Of a DNA stretch of 64,000 nt, positions 13,045-63,544 are shown piece by piece (the first letter of the stretch is position 1; every line of letters starts with the position of its first letter). This DNA is from Chitinophagaceae bacterium (GTDB lineage: Bacteria > Bacteroidota > Bacteroidia > Chitinophagales > Chitinophagaceae), in contig CANCVE010000012.1 of the NCBI GenBank assembly GCA_947381435.1, positions 1-64,000 of the forward strand, given 5' to 3'. Position numbers and translations under genes: made by a program. Under the pieces are notes generated by a model. The model was given only the letters and a program-made list of their open reading frames with translations, had not been told where the DNA came from and ran no database searches.

Positions 13045-13256
13045 GTCTAATCACTACCTCATTAAGCGAAATCACTTCCTGATTAAGCGAAATGAGTACC
13101 TGATTAATTGAAATGAATACCTCATTAAACGAAATGAGTACCTGATTAATTGAAATGAATACCTTATTAAGTGAAATGAATACCTTATTAAACGAAATCA
13201 CTACCTCATTCATTGAAATCAGTAAGGCATTTCAATGAATGAGGTAGTGATTAGAC
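13045..13256. repeat. 21-bp repeat array 2 with inverted ends
   Basis: Units start at 13061, 13082, 13103, 13124, 13145, 13166, 13187 and 13208, all 21 bp, with the core GAAATGARTACCT. The outer ends are exact inverted copies of 19 bp (13045-13063 and 13238-13256). At the right end a perfect 24-bp inverted repeat (13196-13219 with 13229-13252, 9-base loop) ends the array. It lies in a divergent gap between the glycosyltransferase and a lipoprotein gene. I see no gene or site in the remaining 13257-13711; a 62-codon minus-strand frame there is unconvincing. Confidence 0.9.
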
Positions 13257-15014: not shown

Positions 15015-16013
15015 ATGAAGTCATTCAGTGTAGAAGAAATAAACGTAGCCCTAAAAGGTATATTGGTTGGCAGTACTACCCAACAAATAACAGCACCAGA
15101 ACAATTGGAGTTTGCCACAGATACCCAGATAACTTTTATTGGGAGTAAAAAATACATCAAACTTTGGGAGACGTCTAAGGCTTGTGCGGCTATTGTAAAT
15201 GAAGGTTTTGATATAGAACCTGGCGAAAACAGGGCTTTGATAGTGGTGAAGAATGCAGACATTGCCATGGCGCAATTGCTGGAATTGTTTGTAGAAGAAG
15301 GACCTGTATTTGAAGAAGAGATACACCCTACTGCGGTGATTCACGCAACGGCTTCTATTGGTAAAGGAACCAAAATTGGGGCGGGATGCTATATTGGTAA
15401 AAACGTGGTGATAGGCAACGGAACCATCATTTACCCCAACGTAACCATCATGGATAACGTGACCATTGGAAGTATGACAACTATTTGGTCGGGCACGGTG
15501 ATACGTGAACGCAGCGTGATTGGTAGCTATTGTATTTTTCATGCTAATGTGAGTATTGGTGCCGATGGATTTGGTTTTAGACCAAGCCCTGATGGAAGGG
15601 GATTATTGAAAATACCTCATATTGGTAACGTAGTAATTGGTAATGGCGTGGAGATTGGCGCAAATAGTTGCGTGGATAGGGGTAAATTTAGTTCTACCGT
15701 TATAGGCGATGGTTGTAAGATAGATAACCTTGTACAGATAGGGCATAACTGCAAAATGGGGCGTTGTTGCATTATGGCAGGAAGCAGTGGATTGGCTGGT
15801 TCTGTTACGCTTGGTGATGGGGTAATAATTGGCGGCGGTGCTTGTATATCAGATCATGTTACACTTGGCAATGGCGTTTTGGTAGGCGGACAATCGGGCG
15901 TTATCAACAACTTCGAAGATGGCAAAAAGGTTTTGGGCTACCCTGCAATAGACTCTAGAGACGCCTTGAAACAATGGGTGATATTGAGAAAATTAGTGAA
16001 GGAAAGCAAATAG
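15015..16013 (+). CDS. lpxD: UDP-3-O-acylglucosamine N-acyltransferase
   Basis: From the ATG at 15015 the product has 332 residues, close to the usual 340. It adds the N-linked acyl chain in lipid A synthesis. An N-terminal uridine-binding domain (about 1-95) is followed by a left-handed beta helix of hexapeptide repeats; IGADGFGF, DRGKFSSTVIG and the catalytic His in QIGHNCKMG are the LpxD signatures. The frame extends upstream to a TTG at 14964, but that adds 17 polar residues absent from the family. It lies outside the usual lpxD-lpxC-fabZ-lpxA cluster, so a second lpxD elsewhere is possible. Confidence 0.93.
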   Translation: MKSFSVEEINVALKGILVGSTTQQITAPEQLEFATDTQITFIGSKKYIKLWETSKACAAIVNEGFDIEPGENRALIVVKNADIAMAQLLELFVEEGPVFEEEIHPTAVIHATASIGKGTKIGAGCYIGKNVVIGNGTIIYPNVTIMDNVTIGSMTTIWSGTVIRERSVIGSYCIFHANVSIGADGFGFRPSPDGRGLLKIPHIGNVVIGNGVEIGANSCVDRGKFSSTVIGDGCKIDNLVQIGHNCKMGRCCIMAGSSGLAGSVTLGDGVIIGGGACISDHVTLGNGVLVGGQSGVINNFEDGKKVLGYPAIDSRDALKQWVILRKLVKESK

Positions 16014-16077
16014 TTGTTAGTTGTTAGTTATTAGTGGTTAGTTTTTTCAACACTAACCACTAATCACTAACAACTAT
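16011..16077. repeat. 7-bp-period fold-back between converging lpxD and cyclotransferase genes
   Basis: Words TAGTTGT, TAGTTAT, TAGTGGT on the left are mirrored by ACCACTA, ATCACTA, ACAACTA on the right around a short T-rich loop. Both stop codons (16011-16013 and 16074-16076) are part of the arms, so the hairpin probably ends transcription from both sides. Confidence 0.8.
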
Positions 16078-16892
16078 TTTTCAGTAAGTCCCTTTACTTC
16101 AAATATCATGGGCCAGTACTTGCCTGTTATGAATAACCGCTTGGTGGCATTATCATAAGCTATTCCGTTCAGTACTTCGGCCTTATCCGCGTATTGTGGG
16201 AAGTATTTTTCTTTCGTATTACTAAAATCTGCCTTGCCAATAACCTTTCCACTTTCAGGATCTATTTTAATGATGATATCCGATTGCCAGATGTTAGCCA
16301 ATATATATCCGTTAATATATTCCAACTCATTAATATTTGCTACCGGACCATTATTATCCATAACACCAACAATACTCAGTAATTTAAAGGTTTCGGGATC
16401 GCGGAAATAAAGATTATTACTACCATCACTGTTTATCAATTGCTTGCCGTTATTGGTCATTCCCCATCCTTCGCCATCATAAGTAAATTCCTTTAGCTTG
16501 GTAAAAGTCTTGGCATCATACTGAAAGCAAGTCTTTTCCTTCCAAGTCATCTGGTAAATCTTATTGTTCAAGATAGTTATTCCTTCACCAAAGTACTTTT
16601 TATCCAATGGAGTGCTTTTGGTAGACTTTCCCGTTTTCAAATCAATAGTTACCAACTTACTTGTACCATATTGTCCGCCACTTTCGTAGAGGGTATTATT
16701 ATTAAATTCCAAACCTTCTGTATAAGTAGAGGTATCGTGGGAAAATTGGTTGGTTATGGTATAAGTAAGTTGTGGTGGCTCATTGTTGGCAACATTATTT
16801 GTCGATGGAGTATTCTTTACATCATGATTACCACATGAAATTAGGAAAAGGATAGAAAGAACAAACGGTATCTTATTAGTCATTTTTTTCAT
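16074..16892 (-). CDS. Glutaminyl-peptide cyclotransferase-like lipoprotein
   Basis: This protein is a plant/bacterial-type glutamine cyclotransferase: a five-bladed beta propeller with TYTEGLEF, LYESGGQYGTSKL, YFGEGIT, and GWGMTNNGKQL. It would cyclise N-terminal glutamine to pyroglutamate on exported proteins. A lipoprotein signal with LFLISC places it outside the cytoplasm. I prefer MKKMTNKIPF at 16892; the frame extends nine residues further to 16919 with no gain. In T9SS organisms N-terminal pyroglutamate is common on secreted proteins, which suits this role. The length is 272 residues. Confidence 0.9.
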   Translation of the reverse strand: MKKMTNKIPFVLSILFLISCGNHDVKNTPSTNNVANNEPPQLTYTITNQFSHDTSTYTEGLEFNNNTLYESGGQYGTSKLVTIDLKTGKSTKSTPLDKKYFGEGITILNNKIYQMTWKEKTCFQYDAKTFTKLKEFTYDGEGWGMTNNGKQLINSDGSNNLYFRDPETFKLLSIVGVMDNNGPVANINELEYINGYILANIWQSDIIIKIDPESGKVIGKADFSNTKEKYFPQYADKAEVLNGIAYDNATKRLFITGKYWPMIFEVKGLTEK

Positions 16893-20326: not shown

Positions 20327-20560
20327 GAGTCGGAAGTCGATAGTTAAAAGTCGAAAGTTTTTAGTTAAGAATTTAGGGCGGATGGTATGTTGTTGATAAT
20401 TATCTTTGATAATATCGACAAACTCAAAAGCGCAAATTTTGACTAACAACTTTCGACTTTTTTTTATTTTATCTAATGACTTTCAATTCACGACTTACGA
20501 CTTTCAACTCACGACTTTCAACTTACGACTTTCAACTCATATCTCATAACTAACAACTAA
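20327..20560. repeat. 7-bp-period repeats and fold-back downstream of the DUF2723 gene
   Basis: Left part: 7-base steps GTCGGAA, GTCGATA, GTTAAAA, GTCGAAA. Right part: GACTTTC, AACTCAC, GACTTAC repeated about nine times (20478-20540), largely complementary to the left. It starts a few bases after the DUF2723 stop codon and fills the gap to the next gene. Confidence 0.8.
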
Positions 20561-21839: not shown

Positions 21840-21918
21840 GAGCTTTTGCTCTCATTTAGCCTCACTATCTACCTCTCACTTATAAAATTAATTTTCTATT
21901 ACTTAAAAGTAATGCGTT

Positions 21919-22128
21919 GAAACTAATGAGTAATGCCGTGAAACTAATGAGAAACGCCATGAAACTAATAAGTTATGCGCTGAAACTAATGAGAAACGCG
22001 ATGAAACTAATTAGTTATGCGATGAAACTAATGAGAAACGCCATGAAACTAATTAGTTATGCGATGAAACTAATGAGAAACGCCGTGAAACTAATTAGTA
22101 TTGAGCTGAAACAAATGAGAAATAATAT
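21919..22128. repeat. 21-bp repeat array 3 (10 units) between converging genes
   Basis: Units start at 21919, 21940, 21961, 21982, 22003, 22024, 22045, 22066, 22087 and 22108, all exactly 21 bp and all beginning GAAAC. Two unit types alternate (GAAACTAATGAGAAACGC and GAAACTAATTAGTTATGC), making a 42-bp super-repeat; the second type contains the palindrome AACTAATTAGTT. A perfect hairpin ATTACTTAAAAGTAAT (21898-21913) abuts the left end. A frame starting with TTG is open through it, but only because 21 is a multiple of 3 and the unit lacks stops. Confidence 0.9.
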
Positions 22129-29611: not shown

Positions 29612-29740
29612 TTACCACTAAGTTCACAAGGAAAAAACAAAGGACACAAAAAATTAGTATTTGCTTTTATCATTTCTTAACAAGTATTACATAAACCTTG
29701 TGTTCATTGTGATTTCCTTAGTGTGCTTTGTGGTTAAAAT
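29612..29740. repeat. Fold-back element of CACAAAG/CACTAAG words
   Basis: The left arm (ACCACTAAG, TTCACAAGG, AAAGGACACAA) is roughly complementary to the right arm (TTGTGTTCATTGTG, CCTTAGTG, CTTTGTGGT). Arms of about 40 bases enclose an AT-rich core. It fills the gap between copy 2 of DUF5618 and the next gene's terminator. It resembles the CACATAG fold-backs elsewhere in the window in design but not in sequence. Confidence 0.65.
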
Positions 29741-29771
29741 AGACCAAAGTAGTGACAAGTTTATTACAACT

Positions 29772-29802: not shown

Positions 29803-29856
29803 CATTAATAACTAATCTCTAATAACTAACCACTGATAACTAAACACTAACAACTA
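29803..29856. repeat. 7-bp-period repeat abutting a stop codon
   Basis: Seven-base steps TAATAAC, TAATCTC, TAATAAC, TAACCAC, TGATAAC, TAAACAC, TAACAAC run from the terminator up to the stop codon of the next gene at 29857. Confidence 0.75.
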
Positions 29857-30525: not shown

Positions 30526-30704
30526 TTACATAATCGTTATTTTATTTTTTAATAATCAGGTGAAGTACGACTATCTGTGGAATAAATCATTTTTATTTAA
30601 GCCCTAGTAGAATTTATAAAAATAGTTATGGTTGAAAGAGTTAAAAATGACGAATTAGGAAACACTCAATACGGATTGTGGCGGAAATTGAACGGTTTGG
30701 AAAG

Positions 30705-30951
30705 CAAAGAATACGGTCTTTTGCACAAAGAGTACGGTTTGGAACGCAAACACTACGGTTTGAGGTTCAAACAGTAGTGTTTGCGCTTCAAAGACACGTC
30801 TTTCAACCCAAAACAGGTGTCTTTGCCTCGCAAACAGGTGCCTTTGCCCCGCAAACAGGTGTCTTTGCCTCACAAACAGGTGTCTTTGGACATCAAACCG
30901 TAGTGTTTGCGTTCCAAACCGTACTCTTTGCGCAAAAGAGCGTATTCTTTG
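30705..30951. repeat. 21-bp repeat array 4, a long fold-back
   Basis: Roughly 12 units of 21 bp follow the pattern CTTTG-N4/5-CAAA, each near-palindromic. The whole array folds back: 30705-30763 and 30893-30951 are inverted copies matching at 57 of 59 positions, enclosing 129 bases of further units. The right flank (about 30952-31000) is clearly similar to the right flank of array 7. It lies in a divergent gap (30526-31149). Open frames run through it on both strands, which I take as a by-product of the 21-bp period. Confidence 0.9.
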
Positions 30952-37979: not shown

Positions 37980-38137
37980 GTGAGTCGAAAGTTGAAAGTC
38001 GATAGTCAAAAGTCGTGACTCGTAAGTTTTGACTCACGATTTTCGATTGACTACACATGATTCACGGCTCACAACTCACGATTCTCGATTAACGACTCAC
38101 TACTGATGTCCATCGACTTTCAACTCCCGATTTTCGA
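37980..38137. repeat. 7-bp-period fold-back after the TauE/SafE gene
   Basis: Steps such as GAGTCGA, AAGTTGA, AAGTCGA, TAGTCAA, AAGTCGT on the left and GACTCAC, GATTTTC, AACTCAC, GACTTTC on the right form a degenerate 7-bp series with inverted halves. It starts 3 bases after the stop codon. The remaining 38138-38265 holds nothing I can name. Confidence 0.75.
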
Positions 38138-39162: not shown

Positions 39163-39296
39163 AGTGAACAGTTATCAGTAAATAGTTATGAGTTATTAAC
39201 TATTTAAAACTCTTTACTTTTTACAACTAGCTGAAAACTGTTCAATGATAGCTGTTCACTGTTCACTGATAACTGTTCATTGATAACTGTTTACTG
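39163..39296. repeat. 7-bp-period fold-back between tonB and folC
   Basis: Left words CAGTGAA, CAGTTAT, CAGTAAA, TAGTTAT; right words CTGTTCA, CTGATAA, CTGTTCA, TTGATAA, CTGTTTA, CTGATGA. The halves are complementary. It starts 3 bases after the tonB stop and its last word runs into the folC start codon. Confidence 0.8.
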
Positions 39297-40589
39297 ATGA
39301 CTTACAAGGAAACGCTCGATTATCTTTTTAATAAACTGCCAATGTTTAGCCACATTGGGGCTGCCGCTTTGAAGGTAGATTTAACCAATACTATTTTGCT
39401 CTGCGAGGCTTTGGGAAATCCGCATAAGGATTTTAAAAGCATTCATGTTGCAGGTACAAATGGCAAGGGAAGTACCAGTCATTCACTCGCTGCCATATTG
39501 CAAACAGGGGGTTATAAAACTGGTCTGTACACATCACCACATTTGGTTGACTTTAGGGAACGGATAAAAGTAAATGGCGTATGGTGTGACGAACAATTTG
39601 TAATTGATTTTACCCAAAGTATCATTCCACTCATTGAAAAAATAGCTCCTTCGTTCTTTGAGATTACCGTGGCAATGGCATTTAGCTATTTTGCGGAACA
39701 AAAAGTAGATATTGCAGTTATAGAAGTTGGCCTTGGAGGAAGATTAGATAGCACTAATATCATTACGCCCAAATTGAGTATTATTACTAACATTGGTCTT
39801 GATCATGTAAATATTCTTGGCAATACACTCGAAGAAATTGCCTACGAAAAGGCTGGCATTATAAAACCAAACATACCTGTTGTTATTGGAGAGGCTTTAC
39901 CCAATACTAAACCAGTGTTTATTGATAAAGCAAATAAAGAGAATAGCCCCATCAGCTTTGCACAAGAAGCAAGGCATGTGGTAGATTTCACTACCGAACC
40001 TCACTTGCTTACCATAGAAGTAGCATCGCACAATAAGGATGAACACGAGACTTATCACTTGGATTTACCTGGCTTATATCAGGTAAAAAACCTTCTTACC
40101 ATAATAGAAGCTGCTAGCCAATTGAATCAATTAGGCTTTAACCTATCTAAAGAAACTATTAAGAAAGGATTATCTAATGTAAAACACCTTACCGGACTAC
40201 ATGGCAGATGGGAACTGATAGGAAAAGAGCCAACCACAATTGTAGATGTTGCACACAATGAAGATGGCATTAAACAATTAGTAGCGCAATTAGAATTATG
40301 CCCTTATACCCACTTACATATTGTTATTGGGATGGCAAAGGATAAGGATATAAATAGTGTTCTTGCTTTATTACCAAAGCAGGCGGTGTATTATTTTACA
40401 AAAGCGCAGATACCAAGAGCACTCGATGAGCAAAGTTTGCAAACTCTATCGAATGATTTTGGGTTAAATGGCAGTTGCCACACAACAGTACATCAGGCCT
40501 TACAAGCTGCAAAAGACCATGCACACAAAGACGATATGATATTGGTGTGCGGTAGCGTATTTGTAGTAGGCGAGATATTGTACCCTTAA
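39297..40589 (+). CDS. folC: Bifunctional dihydrofolate synthase / folylpolyglutamate synthase
   Basis: This 430-residue Mur-ligase-fold enzyme adds glutamates to dihydropteroate and folates. The P loop is AGTNGKGSTSHSLA (about 52-65) and the family signature VIEVGLGGRLDSTNI follows. TNIGLDHVNILG and DVAHNEDG are also typical. It has normal length. The ATG at 39297 begins at the end of a 7-bp repeat, and engB follows by 67 bases, possibly in the same transcript. Proximity to tonB is conserved across Bacteroidota. Confidence 0.95.
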   Translation: MTYKETLDYLFNKLPMFSHIGAAALKVDLTNTILLCEALGNPHKDFKSIHVAGTNGKGSTSHSLAAILQTGGYKTGLYTSPHLVDFRERIKVNGVWCDEQFVIDFTQSIIPLIEKIAPSFFEITVAMAFSYFAEQKVDIAVIEVGLGGRLDSTNIITPKLSIITNIGLDHVNILGNTLEEIAYEKAGIIKPNIPVVIGEALPNTKPVFIDKANKENSPISFAQEARHVVDFTTEPHLLTIEVASHNKDEHETYHLDLPGLYQVKNLLTIIEAASQLNQLGFNLSKETIKKGLSNVKHLTGLHGRWELIGKEPTTIVDVAHNEDGIKQLVAQLELCPYTHLHIVIGMAKDKDINSVLALLPKQAVYYFTKAQIPRALDEQSLQTLSNDFGLNGSCHTTVHQALQAAKDHAHKDDMILVCGSVFVVGEILYP

Positions 40590-47323: not shown

Positions 47324-47344
47324 TTTAGTATAGATTGAATCTGT

Positions 47345-47470
47345 AATCAGTTAGCAGTTTGCAGTGAACAGTTATCAGTTAATAGTAATCAGTGAACAGT
47401 TAGCATTAATCTGTAGATTGTACTTTTAACTGCTTTTATTACTGATTGCAGCTAACTTCTAACAATTCAC
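47345..47470. repeat. 7-bp-period repeat between two plus-strand genes
   Basis: Words CAGTTAG, CAGTTTG, CAGTGAA, CAGTTAT, CAGTTAA, TAGTAAT, CAGTGAA, CAGTTAG follow one another at 7-bp steps; the right part (AACTGCT, ACTGATT, GCAGCTAAC) is partly complementary. This copy lies about 80 bases after the stop codon, behind a normal terminator. Confidence 0.8.
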
Positions 47471-49438: not shown

Positions 49439-49467
49439 TAATATATCTTCTGATAATTCTTTCTATT

Positions 49468-49968
49468 TTACTGTATGATTGCCAATAAATTATCCAATAA
49501 TTGATGCGTTTTTCCAATAGTTGTTTCAAAACCACTACTCAGCATCTTATCTCTAAATTGAACTGAAGGACAAACCGTATGGATAACAACTTTTGTACTA
49601 TTTCTATTACCATTCTTCAATTCATGAAAGGTAATGGTCTCCAATACAGCATCCATCTTTTGCGGTAATCCTTCAAATTCCGATGTCATACTAATTTTTT
49701 GAGGTACAATTACATCATGATATACACCCCTAAAGCCAAACTTCATTCCATTTGGGTGCGTATGAAAGTGTTTGTAACTGCCACCAGCCTTGCAATCCAT
49801 TATTTCTATCTGCATATTAAGTTCTTTTGGCAAAAACCATTGCACCAATAATTCTGGTGTGGTAAACGCCTTAAAAACAAGTTCTCGCGGTGCATAAAAC
49901 GTTCTCTCTACAAAGTATTCTTGCTTGTTTGGCTCCGCAATTACGATAGTGTTGTTTAGTGTTGACAT
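49468..49968 (-). CDS. SRPBCC (AHSA1/START-like) domain protein
   Basis: This 166-residue protein has the AHSA1 landmarks VERTFYAPRELVFKAFTTPE (18-37), LVQWFLPKE, and FRGVYHDVIVPQKI, ending in a long helix with GFETTIGKTHQLLDNLLA. The fold is a helix-grip pocket that binds a hydrophobic ligand. Such genes often follow an ArsR-type regulator gene in Bacteroidota; none is present here, though two operator-like palindromes lie upstream at 50450-50491. Confidence 0.88.
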   Translation of the reverse strand: MSTLNNTIVIAEPNKQEYFVERTFYAPRELVFKAFTTPELLVQWFLPKELNMQIEIMDCKAGGSYKHFHTHPNGMKFGFRGVYHDVIVPQKISMTSEFEGLPQKMDAVLETITFHELKNGNRNSTKVVIHTVCPSVQFRDKMLSSGFETTIGKTHQLLDNLLAIIQ

Positions 49969-50185
49969 AAAATTTGTGTTTGTTTTATTATTAAATGTAA
50001 TTCGTTTTTGTTGGTACGTACTTACGCAAATCTTCCGTTAAGTTCTAATTTCAAATCTTAATTTATTGAGAAAAAGCCTGACTATTTATTCCAACATTTT
50101 ATTCTAAGGCGTATGGGTTCATTGATGGTAGGGCAATTAAAGCCACTATTGCCTTGCGAGTTGTGGCGAAAATTGCCCAAACAAA

Positions 50186-50410
50186 CAGGGCAAACGCATT
50201 TAATTTTTTTTATACCACATAGCCACAGTAGGCACATAGCTTTTATTATTTCAGGCAGATAAAACGCTTCGCTTTAAGGTCTCATAGCGTTGTAAGCCTG
50301 TATATCCCCGTCTATGTGGCCTTAAAGCGAAGCGTTTCCTTACTGAACACTATGTGGCTATGTGACTATGTGGTATATTTTATCCAATTAATTTTAGTGC
50401 GTTTGCCCTG
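50186..50410. repeat. CACATAG fold-back element 3
   Basis: Three nested inverted pairs are visible: CAGGGCAAACGCA (50186-50198) with its complement at 50398-50410; TATACCACATAG with its complement ending at 50377; and the perfect 18-bp pair AAACGCTTCGCTTTAAGG (50262-50279) and its complement (50320-50337). Between lie 8-base CTATGTGG-type words. The element occupies the gap upstream of the SRPBCC gene. Confidence 0.8.
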
Positions 50411-50449
50411 CCCAAACAAAGTCTACTCTCCTGAAAAAATCATTTATTT

Positions 50450-50491
50450 GCTACCAATTGGTTGCAAATATAAATGCAACTAATTAGTTGC
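50450..50491. promoter_or_regulatory. Pair of operator-like palindromes
   Basis: GCTACCAATTGGTTGC (50450-50465) and GCAACTAATTAGTTGC (50476-50491) are 16-base palindromes (the second perfect) with the shared pattern GCWACYAATTRGTTGC. Their centres are 26 bp apart. This is the form of a dimeric winged-helix repressor site. No regulator gene is adjacent. Confidence 0.5.
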
Positions 50492-50774
50492 GAAAAAATT
50501 TATTTTAAATAATTCAATGAATAGGGTAGGGGAGCGTTTAATGCGATGTGGAGGATGTTTGTATTTAGGAGAAGGCATTTTGTAATGAAGCTTTCATCAA
50601 TTAAAAACTAACAAATAATACGGATACTATTTACTTATCTCTTACAAAAATTTTTTACCTTAAATAGTTGGTTTAATAATTTGTCACTATCGCTTTTGCA
50701 ATTTTACACCCCCTATTTTATTCAACGCTTAGTAAGGCAAACCGTGTAGAGTCTTCTTCATGCCCAAGAAGTAT

Positions 50775-51041
50775 CCAAAAAAGCCTTTTTACTGCTCCCT
50801 GACACCTGATACTACTAAAAAGAGTTGTTTTTACTAGCTTCAGCTCTCTGATGCTACCAAGAAGAGTTGTTTTTGTTAGCTTCAGCTCCCAGATGCTAGT
50901 AAAAAGGGTTGTTTTTACTAGCTTCAGCTCCCTGATACTACCAAAAAGAGTTGTTTTTGGTAGCTTCAACTCTCAGATACTAGTAAAAAGAGTTGTTTTT
51001 ACTAGCTCCAGCTCCCAGAGAGCAGTCTGTAGCTTTTTTGG
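50775..51041. repeat. 21-bp repeat array 6, a series of covarying hairpins
   Basis: Five hairpins with 10-bp arms and 6-base loops start at 50812, 50854, 50896, 50938 and 50980, exactly 42 bp (two 21-bp units) apart. Arms alternate between CTAGTAAAAA/TTTTTACTAG and CTACCAAAAA/TTTTTGGTAG, so changes in one arm are matched in the other. Outer ends are inverted copies (50775-50801 and 51016-51041, sharing CCAAAAAAGC and ACTGCTC). The array lies in a divergent gap (49969-51167); apart from this, the fold-back element and the operator pair I see nothing there. Confidence 0.9.
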
Positions 51042-51167
51042 GTAATCATACAAGATAGCACATTTTAAAAATAAAGCGTTGAATATCCAATGCTTATTGC
51101 CAACTTTGTTAAATCGTTGACGCAGCAACGTGTTTTTACATTTTATTAAATAAATAAAACACTTGTT

Positions 51168-52127
51168 ATGTCTACACGCAATTGGATTCGGTCTGATAAT
51201 TTCATTATCCCCATAGTTAATCGCACGCACATTGCTGCTAAAGAAATTTTCAATAAATTTGATGAAAACCTAGCTGCCGGGATATTAGATACGGCGATAC
51301 ATGATTTATACATTTCTTTTCATCCATTCAATGTTACTTACGATACCTGTTTTGCTGCTTGGAATGCCTTGAAAACAAGCAATCCCGGTAAAACACTGGA
51401 TGTCCAACAAAATGTAGAAGAACTAATTACCAATATTGGCAACTGGGACGTGGCCATTCAGGGCGTACATAACCGTTCGTCAGCTGCCTATAAGTCATTG
51501 TTTCCTAAACACCGTACACCTTTTCAGAGCGGAACGGTAGCAAGTAGGATAATTGCTTTAGAAGCCCTTATTGCCAGCATTGGTACAGATGCAGCATTGG
51601 CTACCGTTAAGGCAGATATTGTAACTTTTTTGGCTGAGTTTAAAGTTGCCCGAACCAAGCAAAGTGGACAGATAACTACCATAGATACTGCCCTTACCGC
51701 TTTGGACGAGGCTACTTTGGCGGCAGCAGAAAAAATGTTTTACGTGTATGGTGGGTTGGTAATGAAGTTTTTTCAGACACCAAAATCGATGGAGGACTAT
51801 ATGCCTGTAGCATTGCTGCAAGAATCGTTTCAAACAACATTTGTTGCTACATTAAAAGACAACAGGCCGAGAAGGATAAATAAACGCAAACTGGATCCAA
51901 CTGAAACGAGCCTCAAGTTTACCGGTTTGGGGCCAGATATTATTCATGCATATTACACAAATGGCTTGGTGAAAACGCTTGGCGTTGGAGATCTTTTTGT
52001 AGTGATAAACCCTAATTCTACTGCTACTTTCAGCCCAACAGAAATGGGCTATACTGACGATAAACGTTGTTTATTTGTAATGAATATGGGTACCGGCAAA
52101 ACAGTGGTAACCATAAAGCTTATTTAA
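51168..52127 (+). CDS. Conserved hypothetical protein, unknown function
   Basis: The 319-residue protein has no signal peptide. The N-terminal two thirds are helical (for example LDTAIHDLYISFHPFNVTYD and IDTALTALDEATLAAAEKMFYVYGGLVMKFF) and the last 90 residues look like a beta domain with GLGPDIIHAYYTNGL, GVGDLFVVINPNSTATF and FVMNMGTGKTVVTIKLI. The GTGKT string resembles a P loop but sits in a strand near the C-terminus and is probably chance. It has its own terminator and lies 126 bases after repeat array 6. I cannot name a function. Confidence 0.7.
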   Translation: MSTRNWIRSDNFIIPIVNRTHIAAKEIFNKFDENLAAGILDTAIHDLYISFHPFNVTYDTCFAAWNALKTSNPGKTLDVQQNVEELITNIGNWDVAIQGVHNRSSAAYKSLFPKHRTPFQSGTVASRIIALEALIASIGTDAALATVKADIVTFLAEFKVARTKQSGQITTIDTALTALDEATLAAAEKMFYVYGGLVMKFFQTPKSMEDYMPVALLQESFQTTFVATLKDNRPRRINKRKLDPTETSLKFTGLGPDIIHAYYTNGLVKTLGVGDLFVVINPNSTATFSPTEMGYTDDKRCLFVMNMGTGKTVVTIKLI

Positions 52128-63297: not shown

Positions 63298-63544
63298 CAA
63301 AGAATACCCTCTTTTTGACAAACACTACGCTTTGAAGTGCAAACACTACGCTTTGGAGGTTAAAGAGGTGTCTTTGCATTCCAAACACACCTCTTTCAGC
63401 TGCAAACATGCCTCTTTGGAGTTCAAACAGTAGTCTTTGCGTTCCAAACACACCTCTTTGAACTCCAAACACGCCTCTTTGAACTCCAAAGCGTCGTGTT
63501 TGCGCTCCAAAGCGTATTGTTTGCGTAAAAGAGGGTATTCTTTG
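63298..63544. repeat. 21-bp repeat array 7, related to array 4
   Basis: About 12 units with the pattern CTTTG-N4/5-CAAA at roughly 21-bp steps (two 20-bp units). The ends are perfect 18-bp inverted repeats (63298-63315 and 63527-63544), and the match continues inward with about 11 mismatches over 78 positions, so the whole array folds back. The right flank resembles that of array 4. It lies between the GH2 start and the mdh terminator; I see nothing else in 63050-63297. Confidence 0.9.

Follow-up and report, generated by a model that had tools for sequence, protein, structure and literature searches.

Arrangement of array 6

What keeps five hairpins in step at an exact spacing of 42 bp upstream of a bacterial gene, and does their pairing matter in a transcript or in the DNA itself? 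We examined this for array 6 in a stretch of 64,000 nucleotides of a Chitinophagaceae genome (G000; the whole stretch analysed is called the window). An earlier note on this DNA had described five hairpins at exact 42-bp spacing, together with inverted ends that close the array. Our analysis bears out this layout, with 26-nt hairpins starting at 50812, 50854, 50896, 50938 and 50980, and 50772-50784 pairing with 51032-51044 at 92% complementarity. The parts of the locus are as follows (strand is given where one applies):

50719..50730: left arm of an outer inverted repeat, 12/12 complementary to 51074..51085
50772..51044: array 6, five 42-bp dyad-symmetric units in tandem with inverted ends, in a register common to relatives in three genomes
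50772..50784: left inverted end, TATCCAAAAAAGC
50812..50837: hairpin 1, one C.C mismatch
50854..50879: hairpin 2, with a C.T mismatch and a G.T pair
50896..50921: hairpin 3, perfect 10-bp arms
50938..50963: hairpin 4, two pairs with both arms changed
50980..51005: hairpin 5, perfect 10-bp arms
51032..51044: right inverted end, GCTTTTTTGGGTA
51045..51167, + strand: leader from the array to gene X, about 80% identity at the orthologous site in G003
51074..51085: right arm of the outer inverted repeat
51168..52127, + strand: gene X, 319 aa, uncharacterised family

The outer inverted repeat may be a chance pairing. Dyad axes follow at 21-bp intervals, one in the hairpin loop and one in the linker, and the highest Tandem Repeats Finder (TRF) score belongs to an 84-bp dimer, i.e. 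unit types alternate. Terminal inverted repeats, by which MITEs are recognised, are present, and the entire 42-bp unit repeats, without the unlike spacers that separate the repeats of a CRISPR. About 1.3 kb (49457-50765), AHSA1-like gene included, is unmatched at the equivalent location in G003; homology on the NDK side restarts there about 130 bp from the array, and the array edge is the break point.

Arm changes and pairing in a transcript

The earlier note had also claimed that arm changes in the array are compensated. This holds for hairpin 4, whose arms (CTACCAAAAA/TTTTTGGTAG) differ from those of hairpins 3 and 5 (CTAGTAAAAA/TTTTTACTAG) at two pairs with both arms altered, but it does not extend to the array in general: hairpin 1 carries an uncompensated C.C and hairpin 2 an uncompensated C.T, next to one pair altered on both sides. 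Among the window units alone, three cells had changed on both sides compared with 1.6 expected (P 0.17). The covariation score was reached by 40 of 500 shuffles with 10 units and by 61 of 500 with 15 units from four elements, and in these 15 units 86.7% of the arm cells were paired, compared with 85.3% in shuffles. Column pair 12-31, the key to the compensation claim, was unpaired in 9 of the 15; the homologous units mostly carry uncompensated changes at this pair, the very outcome that the earlier note had named as speaking against its claim.

Some results favour pairing kept by selection in a transcript. Folding is predicted to be strong, with the strand forming one long imperfect hairpin (z of -8.0 as RNA and -5.8 as DNA, scores that are overstated because the shuffles break up the tandem repeat). 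In one unit both arms differ at two pairs, paired cells make up a borderline share in the window alone (P 0.055), and a pool of 24 units yielded P 0.02 for changes on both sides of the inner arms and at most 0.001 for outer-arm measures, values on which we do not rely because two classes of related units are mixed in them. Against this stand the key pair that fails in most units and the weaker hairpin at the orthologous site in G003, where 7, 8 and 9 of 13 pairs are held compared with 11-12 in the window; one linker at that site is a perfect palindrome, CTCCCGAACGTTCGGGAG, on the other dyad axis. Moreover, single-side mismatches in the eight palindromic arrays of our sample (G.T 16, A.C 21, transversion 40) show no G-U bias, and wobble tolerance is thus seen on neither strand, and Rfam gave no match anywhere in the window at gathering scores. 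The same eight arrays hold eleven compensated cells beside 26 uncompensated double changes, nine of the eleven coming from the window array at 573-1023, whose register is spoiled by indels. With covariation not convincingly above shuffles, the key pair broken and no wobble bias, the earlier suggestion that pairing is kept by selection is not upheld; selection for RNA pairing in array 6 is not supported, and we regard an RNA-level hairpin array as highly improbable.

Templating of one arm by the other, which the earlier note had also considered, may have acted here and is compatible with hairpin 4, the sole unit in which both pairs changed together. Template switching is an established mutation route for hairpins and, as far as the consulted part of that source describes it, explains both-arm changes without selection on RNA (PMC8794818). 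It is presented there as a mutation mechanism, whereas we read array 6 and X as an element (PMC8794818). If the two-part reading proposed below is confirmed, it also serves as a caution that covariation-like patterns can appear in such arrays without RNA function.

Linkage of arrays to gene X

A 41/42-bp array lies within 1000 bp upstream of 49 of the 66 X genes examined, which are best matches and fetched members rather than a random set (L079, a truncated gene, and L251, the same gene as L231, were left out). The period is 41 bp in 23 of these arrays and 42 bp in 26, with a filter that also let in 40 and 43. The 17 genes without a detected array include three that have less than 400 bp upstream and were scored as misses (L242, L267 and L277); at threshold the misses showed no array of another period except weak ones of period 20 (L268) and 25 (L271). 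Within the genus, 31 of 38 X genes, a part of all matches and excluding two at contig ends (L236 and L247), had an array within 900 bp upstream, compared with 42 of 406 control genes (each encoding 200 aa or more), all taken from array-rich G000 (Fisher P 5e-21). Outside the genus, 18 of 29 X loci had one (P 3e-10 against the same control, which is matched neither to the other genomes nor exactly in span, 900 versus 1000 bp).

The position is one-sided: an array was found downstream of X at only one of the 47 loci with at least 250 bp to inspect, and the upstream arrays, of 2.8 to 19 units, lie a median of 183 bp from the X start codon. For 26 of the 49 arrays the consensus unit qualifies as a palindrome at P<0.05, and neither flank of the array shows a clear promoter signal (2 of 49 in each case). 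Conversely, most arrays are orphans with no X nearby, as there are two X genes in 864 kb holding 102 arrays.

The X protein family

In the genus, 11 of 13 genomes have 1 to 12 X matches, and eight have seven or more. Across the order, the family profile detected X in 31 of 396 sampled genomes, representing 13 of 165 genera; among 395 genomes drawn from the phylum it detected X in 2 (own genome counted in each case). X is under purifying selection, with dN/dS of 0.07-0.16 in eight pairs.

The window protein gave one sub-threshold hit in Pfam, none in NCBIfam, and best E values of 0.23 and 0.65 in PHROGs and PDB. For 33 X members the strongest single hits had E values of 0.0075 (Pfam), 0.0044 (NCBIfam) and 0.004 (PADLOC); these hits differed from one another and each arose in only one or two members, and the family profile had no PDB match under E 0.086. 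No DNA-binding domain was recognised in X, and scans with two other X proteins found no relatives in the viral collection. The structure model, made from one sequence (pLDDT 38), shows helices and then a C-terminal strand region and is too poor for a fold search. By these sequence searches, X is an uncharacterised protein family.

Pitch and sequence of the units

The units of X-linked arrays are mostly unrelated in sequence. Only 29 of 1176 pairs of unit consensuses exceeded all of 100 shuffles (identity >=50%), eight of them at >=60%, and these are mostly close relatives. The closest match between distant genomes is that of L269 (G076) to L274-L276, whose units are 59-66% alike across two families of the order.

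The period behaves otherwise. On a tree of 49 X proteins the 41/42 label changes 9 times compared with 16.4 in shuffles (0 of 200 as low), and with one row per related-unit group 8 times compared with 13.8 (5 of 1000). Removing one of every nominally related pair left 7 changes compared with 9.4 (12 of 300), and the genus by itself gave 7 compared with 9.5 (70 of 1000). We conclude that across the order pitch follows the X lineage, with no more than suggestive evidence inside the genus; inheritance of pitch with X is partly shown.

Two paralogues in a single genome, L080 and L091, are 88% identical in X at the amino-acid level and 95% in the leader over 139 bp, yet their units, both of 41 bp, are no more similar than shuffled ones; their homology starts inside the leader about 40 bp from the array, with no match beyond the stop codon. 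At a similar dS (0.5), orthologues have units that are still related (0.55 and 0.64). Among nine close X pairs tested, units were related in six and unrelated in three, and the argument from duplicates, in which gene and leader are shared and the array is not, rests on one recent pair, L080/L091.

A proposed DNA element in two parts

B-DNA has 10.5 bp per turn, and 41-42 bp correspond to about four helical turns, a pitch for which an RNA helix supplies no reason. We tentatively prefer the reading that X and a helically phased array form a two-part DNA element in which pitch is kept and sequence is free, a reading that we find plausible without holding it to be probable. Array 6 would be the upstream half of a chromosomal element made up of the array, a leader of about 150 bp and gene X, and it would act at the DNA level. 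Because dyads 42 bp apart (41 at other X genes) are spaced by about four turns of B-DNA, they would present equivalent sites on the same face of the helix, open to a multimeric protein, most likely X or a partner. This protein would read spacing and shape rather than sequence, which would leave the array sequence free. Arrays would turn over rapidly through internal slippage, unequal exchange and copying by template switch, the last of which would explain an occasional change on both arms. Contact between X and the array, the DNA-level action, the manner of copying and a role of the element for the cell or for itself are all parts that we infer. A DNA scaffold for a phased multimer is the simplest account, and it is favoured by the X linkage above control genes, its one-sidedness, the two pitches and their fit to the X tree, the mostly unrelated units, the L080/L091 pair, purifying selection on X, mismatch types without a mark of RNA, and the excess of periods near 21n in this genome. 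Against it count the 17 X genes without a detected array, the many arrays far from any X, a palindromic consensus in only 26 of 49 arrays, the weaker tie of period to the X tree on stricter tests, and the failure to recognise a DNA-binding domain in X.

A bolder version, which we consider quite unlikely, is that the leader and X form a cassette that makes its own array, with X or a partner amplifying adjacent DNA, at any site where the cassette lands, into a helically phased tandem array rich in dyads and of an X-specific pitch (41 or 42 bp). The array would then be a product of the element rather than inherited sequence, and orphans would be scars or copies. Such a reading fits the L080/L091 pair.

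Relatives of array 6 and the question of mobility

Searching with array 6 returned two places in its own genome, C12 and C8, and matches in two of 38 relatives, G003 and G005, both of the same genus. A search of 13 genus genomes with the end motifs matched four, of which G006 does not hold an element; the matches L010 and L015 were rejected as not being elements. Seven array-6 elements are known (the window, G000:C8, G003:C463, G003:C149, G003:C284, G005:C5 and G005:C1). All seven carry the left-end motif TTTTTACT and four the right-end motif AGCAGTCTGT; unit number ranges from about 1 to 8, and all five multi-unit elements keep the 42-bp register. Two, G003:C284 and G005:C1, adjoin an orthologue of the window gene X. 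The G005 orthologue is truncated at about codon 57, with in-frame stops; this decayed copy, at G005:C1:210151-210950 (L007, L079), has its start cut off beside the element end.

This distribution could mean that the arrays are mobile palindromes, i.e. REP/BIME-like miniature repeats beside which a leader and X cassette settles, with any action of X optional. Six further places in three genomes carry relatives of array 6, and at four of these the fetched locus contains no X. An X-linked array of this genome (G000:C1:107249) also recurs as two dispersed copies, which match it at 85-86% over 574 and 607 bp, flanks included. We found no element beside the orthologous flanks examined for three array-6 sites. 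Mobility would however leave unexplained why the period tends to follow the X clade and why the array nearly always lies on the upstream side of X, and neither a target duplication nor an exact element end was established. The copies of G000:C1:107249 do not share the ends of the copied unit and show no target duplication; empty sites were not found either, the flanks of three array-6 sites not being syntenic in the relatives searched. In L235 (G000:C1), array and X are separated by a REP-like palindrome, GCGTCATTGCGAGGCACGAAGCAACC (reverse strand, 1254-1340), and homology with one orphan copy extends through it.

REP/BIME sequences and their RAYT genes are likewise intergenic palindromes, some adjoining a gene family and many orphaned (PMC3733652), and orphan copies dispersed in the genome are found here as well. 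Compared with what the consulted part of that source describes, X bears no recognisable likeness to a Y1 transposase, the array is one-sided and a strict 41/42-bp tandem, and unit sequence differs between most X genes (PMC3733652). The associated gene of REP-RAYT systems is a Y1 (HUH) transposase, and X lacks such a domain: Y1_Tnp matched neither the window protein (E up to 10) nor appeared among the families listed for the 33-member alignment. Y1 genes themselves occur in 12 of 13 genus genomes, and of 30 Y1 loci (1.7-3.3 kb) 7 had arrays of period 21 or 41-42, 6 had other repeats only and 17 had none, an array share close to that predicted from array density alone (118 per Mb). On balance we hold the mobile-palindrome explanation to be doubtful, though a serious competitor.

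Arrays across the genomes

Array 6 belongs to a large population. The 864 kb sampled from this 4.88-Mb genome contain 102 arrays with a score of at least 70 (118 per Mb), and of the 91 with periods 15-90, 73 lie within 1 bp of 21, 42, 63 or 84, where a uniform spread would put 16% within 1 bp of 21n. In 240 kb of G005, 13 of 15 arrays are near 21n; in 469 kb of other genera it is 1 of 6, at one sixth of the array density. These calls depend on TRF settings and come from one window genome and relatives that are drafts.

Could these be neutral minisatellites, with slippage and template switching at work and a pitch set by DNA mechanics? X would then be linked by circumstance and might sit in long, recently rearranged intergenic regions. 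The abundance of arrays agrees with this: the 102 arrays of the sample include 91 of period 18-90, which fall into 63 families by shared 12-mers and are distributed over intergenic types roughly in proportion to gap length. So do the turnover of units between species and the weak link between period and clade inside the genus. Among intergenic counterparts, array 6 and the CAAACA family at 30667-30910 (in G005) keep their array in a relative, 13055-13224 has a counterpart without an array in G003, and after 21839 an unrelated array of the same pitch stands at the counterpart position in G005. What neutrality does not account for is an X linkage far above that of other genes, which is moreover one-sided and recurs in other families of the order, and we rate it as rather unlikely.

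Several further observations concern the arrays at large. Downstream of one gene, the window has a 42-bp array (21908-22123) and G005:C19 an unrelated 21/42-bp array (L186:1860-2023). The window arrays at 30667-30910 and 63319-63523 form one family (CAAACA..GTCTTTG), and each makes up a giant inverted repeat whose arms, about 107-110 nt long, match at 70-72%; the former has a related array at its G005 counterpart. Heptad-type arrays (7/14/21/28 bp) occur at 20478-20558, 29806-29856, 38031-38100, 39228-39302 and 47343-47411, and a heptad-type stretch at 16008-16080 has many both-strand matches in G003 and G005; 29612-29760 belongs to a dispersed family, about 150 bp long, that has numerous copies in G005. 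The heptad-type arrays look like a class separate from the 21n dyad arrays, and some of their words resemble TAACTGA (PMC4679880). Heptamer repeats of that kind are intergenic tandems reported from five Bacteroidetes, many just upstream of start codons (PMC4679880). Their units are of 7 nt and, in the consulted part of that source, come with no comparable partner gene (PMC4679880).

A terminator reading was rejected, as arrays are not enriched between convergent genes (according to a crude ORF caller that called ORFs in 12 of 44 arrays). Predicted curvature exceeded that of shuffled units at P<0.05 in 13 of 73 arrays (mean z 0.36, standard error 0.19), a weak signal, computed with a wedge table, that we leave out of the argument.

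The leader motif and origin-like loci

The motif TTATNCACA, which we take to be DnaA-box-like, occurs in 9 of 55 leaders (L078, L080, L082, L083, L091, L094, L231, L239 and L240) at -103 to -114 and on one strand only, compared with 0.5 expected in shuffles; the window copy has it in degenerate form. Iteron origins and plasmid centromeres have helically phased repeats by the gene of a protein that may bind them, and the phased repeats beside X, with a DnaA-box-like site in some leaders, resemble this. X loci might then be origin- or centromere-like, with iteron-like repeats, a DnaA-box-like site and X as initiator or partition protein. The motif is however not independent evidence, because the leaders that bear it are homologous, and the other 46 of 55 lack it. 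X has no Rep or Par match in Pfam, NCBIfam, PHROGs or PDB, is present in several copies per genome, and in the window version matches nothing in the phage and plasmid collections; unlike the repeats of origins and centromeres, its units are not conserved with the protein. Such a locus is, in our judgement, very unlikely.

A leader adjoining an array of fixed pitch is also a feature of CRISPR loci. X arrays differ from these in having no spacers and no conserved repeat sequence, and no cas genes were found among the seven neighbouring window proteins checked.

Implications

We found no description of such arrays or of X in the open-access papers searched, which does not prove their absence from print, and we know of no bacterial counterpart in which repeat spacing is tied to a protein family while the sequence is free. 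The two-part element that we tentatively propose may explain why these genomes hold so many arrays of about 21n bp that are unrelated in sequence. Its confirmation would imply either that DNA is recognised by its pitch or shape, or that there is an activity that writes repeats of a set length.
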